From Perkinsus olseni (Eukaryota > Perkinsozoa > Perkinsida > Perkinsidae): a DNA stretch of 64,000 nt. The stretch is from assembly GCA_013115135.1 (NCBI GenBank), contig JABANP010000138.1, forward strand, positions 1-64,000, read 5' to 3'. The notes below the pieces were generated by a model. The model was not told the origin of the DNA and did not search any database. It was given only the letters and a program-made list of their open reading frames with translations. A program made the position numbers and the translations under genes. Positions 1,628 through 64,000 of this stretch are shown here, piece by piece. Within the stretch, counting starts at the first letter, position 1; each line of letters opens with the position of its first letter.

Positions 1628-4104
1628 ATGACGGCGGAGGATTCAACCGGCGTTGATGTCGAAGATAACTTCTGGGAGGTGGAAATGAAAGACGTCAACT
1701 TGTATGAAGCCATAGGAGAGGGCACATTCTCGAAGGTTTACAGGTAATACGAAAATTTTCGGGAAAAATACAGTTTTTCCCGAAAATTTCTGGCAAAGTT
1801 TGTCAGGGGGTCCTGGCGGGGCGCTGATGTGGCAGTAAAAGAAATTCATTTGGATTTGCCGGAGACGGAGGAAATGCTGAAAATGTTCAAACGAGAGTTG
1901 ACGGTAGTGCGCGGGTTCGATCCCTGATGGGGTCATTTTTAGCCATTTATTGGAGTATCTTTTCAGTCGCTAGCGTGGGTTCGTACTCGAAATTTTCGAC
2001 TGGATGATTTTTTGCAAAAATTTCGGTGTTTTTGCGGTGGTAAAATTTTTTTGCGCAATAAAAATCTTTTCCATGGGTCAGGTTATGTTGACTCTACGCC
2101 ACCCGAATCTTGTGCTGCTGCTAGGCGCACATACGAGGTCGAAACCGCTGAGGATACTGGTGGAATATTGGTAGTGCGGGCGTATCTTAATCGATCAGAT
2201 TTGATCGATTTAGCTCGGGTGGATCTTTGTATGATTTATTGCATGTTAAAAGAGAAGTTCAACTGAGTTGGGGACAGCGAGCGGTAGGCGGAGCGAAGCG
2301 AATTTTGGGCATAGGGGTATCCAAGGTCGATTCTAGGAAGATACGAGCGAACTCTGAATCAGATGATATGTGGTCGCTTCGTTATCGGCGTTATAAGTGG
2401 TGCGTGAAAACGTTCAATAAATGCGTGAAGAATTCCGGTAGCGGCCTTCGAAGCTTCCCCGCAGTCTATCAAGTCCCGCTGGTCGTCTTCCAAGACGGTT
2501 GGACAGAATCGATCGGCTGATCGATTTGGCCGTTTCACTGTGTATCTTTTCCTGTGCAGGTTATGATGTTGGATGTTGCGAAAGGTATTTATTTCATGCA
2601 CTCATCGAGGCCTCCAGTAGGCTGAATTTCGTGGCGCGTGACGGATGGAGCTTCGCTCCGCCTGATTTGTTAGGTCATTCACAGGGATATCAAATCGCTG
2701 AATCTTCTGTTGGAACAGCCCGTGTAAATTTAGACGGATGTTGAGATATTCTGTATCTTGCATGGGTGGACCTAAGATACGACGAGGAGGATCCTATACG
2801 GGTTAAGATTGCCGACTTTGGAATGGCGCGTTTGGAGCAGCAAGCTACGGCAGGACTCACCGAAGCTGCGGGTGGGTAATTTCGTGGCGCAGTGACGCAC
2901 CAAATTCGGCGGAGCGGAGCTCCTTTCGCAATTTTCCCAATGAAGGGTCTCCCTGCTATACATTGGTGATCATAAGAGCGCGTATCCTTAGGTTGAGCGT
3001 GGGAGATACGGAATAGGTCAGGTACGTTCCACTGGATGGCTCCGGAAGTACTTCGAGGAGAGGACTATGACGAGCGCTGTGATATCTACTCCTTCGGGAT
3101 AACTTTGTAATTTCGTGGCGCAGTGACGCTTCTGCCTGAATGATAGCTAGTGTCCTCAGGACTCGTTCCGATGAACCTCAAACGTATCTTACTAGCTTCA
3201 ACCTCAGATACGAGATCATTTCCCGAGAGCTGCCATACCGAGATGCTGAGATGTCGGGAATGGCGGTAGTAGAGTTCAGGAGTGGGAATTTCGTGGCGCG
3301 TGACGGTTTCCTTCCGACGGATTCAGCATTCAATGGCTCTCGGTCGGAAAATTTTTCCGAGGAAAAAACGCAAAATTACGCTATTTTTCTCCTGTGGTTC
3401 CGATTCGACCTGATAAATTTTCGGACGCTAATATTCTTTTCGGTTTCGCGGATCACAAATTTCGATTGTAAAAATATATTTTGACGGTCAAAATTTGACC
3501 AGCGTGGGTTGTGGCCCGAAAGACCATTCAGAGTGCCTGGTGGACTCTCGCTGGCTTGGTTCCACTCGACTGAGTTTTGGGTTGAATTGTTTTCGAAAAA
3601 ACTCGGTGGTGTGAAAATTATTTTCGCGTCTTTTCTGAAAATTCGGGTGGAAGGATACAGTTTTCGAGCGCAGTATCTTGAGGTCGACCCTTGCGAAATA
3701 TAAGTTGTAAAGATATGCTAGGTTGCCATTGCTGTTACTCGAGGACTTCGACCAGAAGACGCATATATTCCGACTGACGCACCCGATGCTGCTGTGTAAT
3801 AAATACCGCCACCCGGATTCGATCCGGGGACCTTCGGGTTACCCTCAGAGCCCTTATGAAGAAGTGCTGGGCGGGGGAGGCTGCTGCCAGGCCTACGCAG
3901 AAGCAGATATGTGAGTTTACGTGGTCATGGGTAATCGAAAGGCCCCGGGTTCAATCCCTGGCAGTGGCGTGCGTATAATTGTTCTTCGTAAACAGAAATC
4001 TAGAACTGAAACGGTCGAAATCGATCAAATCTGATCGATTTCATCTGACTGGGATTTTGTTAGGTACCGCACTCCGAAGGTTAACTCATGAAATGCATGG
4101 ATGA
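1628..4104 (+). CDS. TKL-type protein kinase, multi-exon
   Basis: Encodes a serine/threonine kinase of the tyrosine-kinase-like (Raf/MLK-like) type. Exons that join in frame include 1628-1743, 1807-1903, 2082-2170, 2214-2283, 2560-2616, 2674-2723, 2777-2871, 3022-3106, 3208-about 3281, about 3747-3795, 3849-3910 and 4074-4104; one exon near 3500 is uncertain. The joined product shows the glycine loop GEGTFSKV, the VAVK lysine, the catalytic motif [11 protein letters not shown], the DFG motif (IADFGMAR), the APE motif (HWMAPEVL), and a C-lobe with SFGITLYEII and a CW..ARPT signature. The ATG at 1628 is followed by a short acidic N-terminus. The stop is TGA at 4102-4104. Most introns contain repeated elements: the intron at 2724-2776 ends in the GTATCTT hairpin family and the intron at 3796-3848 holds an antisense tRNA T-arm-like element. 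The kinase class is clear; the substrate is unknown. Confidence 0.85.
2617..2673 (+). repeat. Composite introner intron (families A and D)
   Basis: This 57-nt intron lies between the codons for RPP and VIHRDIK of the kinase, so both boundaries are fixed by the conserved catalytic loop. It contains AATTTCGTGGCGCGTGACG (family A) followed by CTTCGCTCCGCC, the reverse complement of family D. The two repeats together make up most of the intron. Confidence 0.75.
2724..2776 (+). repeat. Introner intron, family B (GTATCTT hairpin)
   Basis: A kinase intron of 53 nt lies between EQPV and YDEEDP. Its 3' part reads GTATCTTGC...CCTAAG and the downstream exon starts ATAC, so the inverted repeat GTATCTT/AAGATAC straddles the 3' splice site. 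The AG used for splicing sits inside the right arm. Confidence 0.7.
3107..3207 (+). repeat. Nested introner intron (families A and B)
   Basis: This intron lies between SFGITL and YEIIS of the kinase. It starts GTAATTTCGTGGCGCAGTGA (family A) and ends with a family B unit, GTATCTTACTAGC...CCTCAG, again with ATAC as the first exon bases. It looks like one introner placed in or beside another. Confidence 0.7.
3796..3848 (+). repeat. tRNA-3'-end-like introner, antisense
   Basis: This 53-nt kinase intron begins GTAATAAATACC and contains CCCGGATTCGATCCGGGG, a T-arm-like stem-loop, followed by ACCTTCGGG...CTCAG. The flanking exons join as PDAAV-ALMKKCW, so the boundaries are firm. In sense orientation the core resembles a tRNA T-arm plus 3' acceptor half. 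Confidence 0.75.
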
Positions 4105-63860: not shown

Positions 63861-64000
63861 TAAGTTTTGGGAGGTCCCGGGTTCGATCCCCTGCGAGGAC
63901 ATCCATGCCTTTTCTGCTCACAATTGTGTCCGGGTGTTGAATAGGGCTCTCCGGAGTTTAAGGGTGCCTTCTTACACGTTAAATTCAGAGCCTGGGGGCG
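63861..64000 (+). repeat. tRNA-like introner start and window end
   Basis: Starting at 63,859, the bases read GTAAGTTTTGGGAGGTCCC then GGGTTCGATCCCCTGCGAGG, the family F layout in sense orientation, directly after the last zinc-finger exon. This implies the zinc-finger gene continues beyond the window. Confidence 0.55.

Follow-up and report, generated by a model that had tools for sequence, protein, structure and literature searches.

The origin of new introns is a long-standing question. Families of introners, or introner-like elements, are known from Micromonas and Aureococcus, and families of this kind without the marks of DNA transposons are hard to assign to a source. The question is raised by a stretch of 64,000 nucleotides from Perkinsus olseni, an alveolate parasite of molluscs (shellfish); this stretch is henceforth called the window (G000:C44:1-64000, in a 61.5-Mb assembly of 968 contigs that was used for the genome scans). 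A short motif resembling the B box of RNA polymerase III (Pol III) genes recurs throughout the window and lies within introns of several non-homologous genes. Our reading, to which a probability of roughly 0.5 is assigned, is that the motif marks an old, diversified B-box-plus-terminator element of P. olseni acting as an introner. The family has a high copy number, a defined anatomy and a fixed donor position, and it occupies introns in both orientations.

The core motif is the 12-mer GGGTTCGATCCC. When both strands of the window were scanned with up to two mismatches, 39 matches at 28 distinct places were obtained (near-palindromic places are counted on both strands, so that matches exceed places), whereas 100 shuffles averaged 5.68 matches and never exceeded 13. 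A preceding sequence-only reading had counted about 30 places; of the 20 further copies that it placed approximately, 17 lie within 16 nt of a scan match and those at 16,125 and 17,050 are recovered at three mismatches, whereas 15,247 holds a degenerate copy only. Exact cores at 26,387 and 63,879 are additional to its list. Across the whole assembly, the exact 12-mer occurs 462 times against 6 for the reversed sequence (~77-fold), a count that includes tandem arrays on contigs C25 and C41 and some tRNA genes (e.g., L069). Similarly, AGGTCNCNGGTTCGA is found in 895 copies against 5 reversed (~179-fold), and the string GTAATCGAAAGGTCNCNGG, with up to one mismatch, 126 times against 0 for the control. 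The core family is therefore dispersed and strongly over-represented, with copies that have diverged widely from one another. Identical or near-identical copies do occur on contigs C313/C368, C169/C199/C284 and C360/C429, some at similar positions; same-sequence copies of this kind probably reflect allelic or duplicated contigs.

The anatomy of the element was read in tRNA numbering from 25 copies chosen on the 12-mer alone, namely 5 from the window, 1 from a stretch of contig C1 and 19 from among 20 places that were fetched from the top of the genome match listing rather than drawn at random; L069 was left out as a tRNA gene, and ARAGORN also calls it tRNA-like. Conservation sets in sharply at position 44 and ends at 77. 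On the 5' side, A44 is kept in 20, G45 in 21, G46 in 21 and C48 in 23 of the 25 copies; on the 3' side, the counts are 15 for C72, 18 for A73, 20 for T74 and 19 for T75, while positions 63, 67, 68 and 71 carry no information. The resulting order is an AGGTC variable loop, the B box, C72-A73 and a T-run from position 74, with a distance of 12 nt from C61 to the T-run, as in a tRNA gene. No conserved sequence was found beyond position 77 in these copies, and hence no 3' body or tail of the type seen in short interspersed elements (SINEs).

Any set chosen on the core inflates the conservation of the core, and a second selection ignored it. The flanks alone, AGGTC-N23-CATTTTT, retrieve 116 genome matches against 3 for the control, and a B box (up to four mismatches) stands between them in 84 of the 92 matches whose letters were printed, the other 8 being without one; ascertainment by the core is thereby ruled out. 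Among 78 distinct flank-selected B-box copies, T55 and C56 are present in all 78, G53 in 77 and C61 in 76. In 264 kb searched with up to one mismatch, the flank spacing of 23 gives 17 matches, compared with 2-8 at spacings of 15-22 and 24-32; at up to two mismatches this peak is absent (79 at spacing 23 against 50-80 elsewhere). Taken together, a specific likeness to a tRNA 3' end, including the 12 nt that separate C61 from the T-run, is supported.

Six introns with the element are fixed by homology or annotation, in that a conserved protein becomes continuous once they are taken out, as expected of spliceosomal introns. Two of them interrupt a TKL-type kinase gene on the plus strand (best PDB match CTR1, E 5.9e-54), and both junctions align free of gaps. 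The first (1904-2081, 178 nt) begins with GTAGTGCGCGGGTTCGATCCC and holds the sense element in only its first ~45 nt; its junction reads KRELT^VMLTLRHPN, and the database protein P0002 reads KRELTVMLTL. The second (3796-3848, 53 nt) lies in kinase subdomain X-XI, with its junction after PDAA, and consists of the antisense element: its donor, GTAATAA, comes from the complement of the T-run end. GTAA stands at one end of this intron and TTAC at the other. This antisense intron also retains GTAA at tRNA positions 35-38, which hints that the donor letters belong to the element, although a single case is not proof. A third intron (5690-5735, plus strand, 46 nt) is the sense element GTAAGCGGAAGGTCCTGGGTTCGATCCCTGGCAGGGGTATTTTCAG in a gene for sphingosine (sphinganine) kinase, whose spliced model matches 'sphinganine kinase lcb4 [Perkinsus olseni]' with 96% identity at 79% query coverage. 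This intron is spliced out in two P. olseni database proteins, P0001 and P0002, and both kinase introns are likewise spliced out in P0002; as P0002 (on a 117,067-base contig) may be the window gene itself, it is counted as annotation and not as independent data. The sequence-only reading had placed the borders of 3796-3848 and 5690-5735 exactly. Around 5490-5520, the sphingosine kinase gene has a frame break in this assembly where the database has intact copies, pointing to an assembly error or a broken allele.

The fourth intron (62592-62647, plus strand, 56 nt) carries the antisense element and splits a C2H2 (zf-met) finger, FYCQVCKVVLKSEEA^LDSHVQSDDH (E 2.5e-7); with 3796-3848, it bears out the earlier claim that antisense copies are also spliced. 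The remaining two lie on contig C1, where a 49-nt sense element splits a kinesin P-loop, GQTG^SGKT (E 7.5e-16), and an 84-nt intron interrupts glucose-6-phosphate isomerase (GPI) at NVVEDVW^RVLDQIK in a gap-free alignment (E 1.4e-24). The introns of sphingosine kinase (46 nt) and kinesin (49 nt) and the 53-nt intron of the kinase contain little besides the element, the GPI intron is filled by it in part, and the 178-nt intron at 1904-2081 is not. The family thus occupies introns at many non-homologous positions (twice in the kinase, and in sphingosine kinase, the zinc finger, kinesin and GPI), with the element in both orientations.

Splice signals are found at particular places in the element. 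A GT[AG][AG] starting at tRNA positions 30-43 is present in 22 of 46 copies, compared with 5-13 of 46 in nine control windows, and GT[AG] starts concentrate at positions 34-36 (15 starts). Genome-wide, GTRA stands at position 35 in 112 of the 895 AGGTCNCNGGTTCGA copies, a number that includes allelic or duplicated contigs, against TARA in 4. The donor complement [CT][CT]AC, starting at 74-88, is found in 16 of 46 copies against 3-12 in eight control windows, and in antisense introns the splice sites are supplied by the opposite ends of the element. The antisense acceptor CT[AG] at 28-43 is not clearly enriched (19 of 46 against 13-22 in controls). A tight-intron layout, in either orientation, surrounds 23 of 46 copies and 19% of 4000 random places, so that residence in introns is enriched and not exclusive. 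The sense layout that the sequence-only reading had called constant was accordingly overstated, and its expected excess of the core inside introns is borne out in part, such layouts being enriched and half of the 46 examined copies lying outside them; its observation that the T-run stands in the place of the polypyrimidine tract holds in the sense introns.

Further introns in the window are predicted. An automatic GT-AG and open-frame search was permissive and was used only to propose candidates; it often gave both orientations at one copy, and it made proposals for weak matches too. The better cases are a 90-nt intron (6933-7022, minus strand), whose antisense copy is longer and includes an A box at 6959 as well as a B box at 7002, and a 51-nt intron with a sense element (17238-17288, minus strand), each with open flanks and stops in the unspliced frame. 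Both had been proposed before, the latter with borders at 17,236-17,290 that are now shifted; they stand as predicted introns, and a Pfam search of the spliced peptides at the two places gave no match. Five others, all on the minus strand, are candidates of lesser standing: a 55-nt predicted intron with a sense element (13119-13173), whose unspliced reading is open in another upstream frame; a 42-nt antisense element (13559-13600) that an in-frame reading crosses without meeting a stop; a 41-nt antisense element, GTAAAAAGTACC...TCTTCAG (14763-14803), with an open unspliced reading in another upstream frame (ORF 14031-14984); a 47-nt sense element, GTAATATTAGGGCGGCGGTTCGAACCCCGCAGATGTCATTTTTTCAG (15036-15082), likewise open in another upstream frame (ORF 14741-15274); and a 57-nt intron with an antisense element (17025-17081) in a leucine-rich-repeat-like stretch (AAVKE^IDVSYNYL), where the repeat match is weak (E 0.0024) and in-frame read-through is possible. 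Among spliced peptides searched against Pfam, four were without any match and two more had sub-threshold matches only.

The mechanism that we propose begins with a short dispersed element of ~40-46 nt that would carry the transcription signals found in the 3' half of Pol III genes, namely the variable loop, the B box and a terminator 12 nt past C61. Over a long period, many diverging sources or lineages would have seeded copies of it across the genome, presumably with transcription by Pol III and movement by reverse transcription, and its insertion into genes would have created introns. A copy within a gene could be removed by the spliceosome: in the sense orientation, GTRA at tRNA positions 34-36 would serve as the donor, the Pol III-type T-run as the polypyrimidine tract and a nearby YAG as the acceptor, whereas an antisense copy could draw its donor from the complement of the T-run end. 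Copies are likeliest tolerated in genes because they splice. That this introner belongs to a retroposon-like (tRNA/Pol III) sequence class is put at even odds. The more specific idea that new introns arise from the 3' half of tRNA-like genes, with the N-G-U-A-A of an anticodon loop turned into a 5' splice site and the Pol III terminator into a polypyrimidine tract in both orientations, is doubtful.

Several results weigh against this reading of an introner with Pol III signals. The five candidates with open unspliced readings (13119-13173 to 17025-17081) are not counted as shown for that reason, and the splice acceptor is not clearly enriched among the 46 copies (YAG at 76-95 in 27, controls 15-29). 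The zinc-finger intron, one of the two homology-fixed antisense introns, has no clear T-run. Border repeats, measured in register at the intron borders of 15 introns (6 fixed by homology or annotation and 9 predicted), span 0-5 nt in the 9 sense introns and 0-1 nt in the 6 antisense introns, giving no sign of a general target-site duplication, and the longer ones are the AG/GT splice consensus. At a cut-off score that no more than 0.5% of control places attain, an upstream A box accompanies just 2 copies out of 40, one in the window (A box at 6959) and one on contig C1; most copies therefore lack a complete Pol III promoter. Subfamily structure is weak (124 close pairs against 87 in shuffles, shuffle maximum 116) and the alignment columns are nearly independent of each other, so that the evidence for copying out of a few masters is poor. 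With regard to intron gain by insertion, the identical copies that were seen look allelic or duplicated. Finally, the T-stem does not covary: among 78 copies, the pair 49:65 is formed in 41 (39.5 expected from the columns), 50:64 in 47 (46.6 expected) and 51:63 in 32 (36.6 expected), and covariation is likewise absent in a set of 30 copies.

These structural results also bear on what the element is. No common acceptor-stem sequence was found among the copies, the region being nearly random, and Rfam and ARAGORN scans of the 64-kb window returned no tRNA. Since the T-stems do not covary, no acceptor sequence is shared and neither program calls a tRNA, the copies do not qualify as tRNA genes or pseudogenes, nor, at the level of RNA, as tRNA 3' ends, and faithful tRNA copies are ruled out by the non-covarying pairs together with the scans. 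The link to tRNA 3' ends drawn in the sequence-only reading survives as a specific likeness in spacing and in the 44-77 profile, but not as tRNA structure: this profile fits the end of a Pol III gene that has no RNA structure, the B box, the spacing and the terminator being kept while the stem and the acceptor are free. An A box joined to a B box, the hallmark of a tRNA-derived SINE, was found in just the two copies mentioned above; at their tRNA-like spacing, these suggest a longer tRNA-like ancestor. A full SINE truncated by gradual loss of its 5' end is ruled out by the abrupt drop of conservation at position 44 and by the rarity of the A box.

Other origins have to be weighed against the same observations. 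The copies may be functional B-box sites, bound by TFIIIC and organising chromatin, that are under selection at many loci, with an intron location that is tolerated and not causal; we consider this unlikely, although nearly invariant B-box letters beside random neighbouring positions, the shortage of A boxes, the near-independence of columns and the use of both orientations all speak for it. Binding sites alone would not be expected to fix GTRA at position 35 (112 of 895), to hold C72-A73 and the T-run at exact tRNA spacing, or to make up nearly pure-element introns. Direct capture, by which 3' tRNA halves (or 5'-truncated pre-tRNAs with a U-tail) of many isoacceptors were reverse-transcribed and inserted with the anticodon loop becoming the donor, would account for that donor, as positions 34-36 are the anticodon and a tRNA gene assigned to Thr by eye (L029) carries GTAA there as well. 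The conservation profile is, moreover, like that of tRNA genes compared with one another, in which the variable loop, T loop, C72, A73 and terminator are shared and the acceptor is random. Captured tRNA should have left paired T-stems, however, yet 49:65, 50:64 and 51:63 are without covariation, and none of the copies has been matched to one of this genome's tRNA genes; capture is judged quite improbable.

An introner derived from a DNA transposon, similar to a miniature inverted-repeat transposable element (MITE), is a still poorer prospect in our estimate. Its near-palindromic core, GGGTTCGAACCC, would resemble a B box by accident, and the near-palindrome and the GTAA and TTAC ends of the antisense kinase intron speak for it; DNA-transposon marks are indeed reported for many known introner families in the accessible part of an introner survey (PMC9860276). 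In the present copies, no terminal inverted repeat longer than 4 nt was noticed and no consistent duplication was found, and the AGGTC/B box/CA/T-run arrangement at tRNA-gene spacing would have to be a coincidence. Chance or ascertainment, that is, a short GC-rich motif whose presence in introns is fortuitous, might draw on the inflation of core conservation by B-box selection in any single scan and on the permissive intron proposals with their double orientations and weak matches; it is hardly credible and is already contradicted by the recovery of the core in 84 of 92 flank-only matches and by genome counts ~77- and ~179-fold above the reversed controls.

The window holds other copies of the element. 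On the plus strand, a sense copy, GTAATCGAAAGGCCCCGGGTTCAATCCCTGGCA, lies at 3931-3970 without a T-run, its intron status not being fixed; core copies lie at 47799-47810 (tail GGCACCTCACATTTTT) and 59130-59141 (AGGTCCCAGGTTCGATCCT...CCTTTTT), and an exact core at 63879-63890 has GTAAGTTTTGGGAGGTCCC upstream. A plus-strand copy at 54492-54540 had been claimed as an intron, which is not established, as the open frame preceding it has 18 codons. On the minus strand, a sense core at 8433-8444 stands upstream of a CAG between two permease-like ORFs, its 5' boundary not being fixed, and a sense core at 13941-13952 has a complete tail (CACAGGTTGCATTTTTT). Exact cores are found at 17423-17434 (tail CGGAGATGACATTTTT) and, without a T-run, at 26387-26398; further minus-strand core copies lie at 14278-14289, 43472-43483 (GGATTCGATCCC), 53267-53278 (GTAATCCTAAAGGTCCCCGGTTCTATCCCC), 54724-54735 (with CGAAAGGTCGCCGG) and 61199-61210 (tail GGCGTCCGGCATTTT).

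Other repeats and features were noted. A second short motif family, AATTTCGTGGCGC(G/A)YGA, is represented by a 13-mer with 1,593 exact genome copies against 1 reversed and is conserved over only ~18-20 nt; in the window it occurs at 2627, 2880, 3111, 3289, 12188, 14474, 15546, 15625, 62400, 62504 and 63709, among others, and it also lies in introns, for instance in the kinase at RPP^VIHRDIKS. Its core seems to resemble the A-box-bearing 5' end of a tRNA; the family was considered as the matching 5' half of the element, but a link between the two was not demonstrated. Further repeated motifs, lying within introns or near them, are GTATCTT...GATAC pairs, AATCGATCA...TGATCGATT palindromes and GCGGAGCGAAGC (2171-2213, 2748-2780, 3177-3211, 4498-4523 and 18691-19231). 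An open frame of 1829 aa (19848-25337) has weak, below-cut-off matches to retrotransposon gag and zinc-knuckle domains, and 11193-11490 matches eukaryotic small-subunit (SSU) rRNA at 35.8 bits, below the gathering score, and is perhaps an rRNA fragment. Elsewhere in the assembly, a tandem array at G000:C41 ~104,400-118,500 is built of units of ~3.35 kb, in each of which ~630 nt lie between an exact core and a spliced-leader sequence; the Perkinsus-type spliced leader, CCGTAGCCATCTTGGCTCAAG, occurs 85 times in the genome and 0 times reversed.

If the proposed reading is true, an introner family with Pol III signals would add another class of intron source and would explain how its copies are spliced in either direction. 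It would also provide a countable and testable set of introns, the gain of which could be dated through empty sites in other strains of the parasite.

With known introners, the Perkinsus family shares its dispersal and its copies that are whole short introns bringing their own splice signals, whereas it differs in that the copies are short, very diverged, without clear inverted repeats or target-site duplications, and equipped with a B box and a terminator. For comparison, the accessible part of the introner survey gives duplications in 49 of 130 families and terminal inverted repeats in 72 of 177, and the words 'SINE', 'tRNA' and 'Perkinsus' are absent from its main text (PMC9860276). The introner elements of Amoebophrya, as described in the available portion of PMC7789003, likewise belong to an alveolate parasite with many repeated introns, but they form non-canonical introns with 8-20-nt inverted and 3-5-nt direct terminal repeats, whereas the Perkinsus introns are GT-AG and have no such repeats. 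The last column of a table there, taken as P. marinus, gives a median intron of 49 bp and 99.3% GT-AG, and intron lengths of 39-1622 bp, mostly below 100 bp, are stated in the accessible part of PMC3101222. A literature search, mostly without subscription papers, turned up no account of Perkinsus introns of the tRNA or B-box type. Compared with tRNA-derived SINEs, the element has in common the tRNA-type B box, the A box at tRNA spacing in two copies and the Pol III-like T-run end; it differs in mostly lacking the A box, in having its tRNA-like part as a 3' end and not as a 5' head, and in having no body, A-rich tail or duplications at intron borders. The ETC and COC sites of yeasts are B-box-only TFIIIC sites without an A box, and the Perkinsus copies resemble them as many dispersed B boxes of this kind; in contrast to such sites, they keep AGGTC and the CA-T-run at exact tRNA spacing and form introns.

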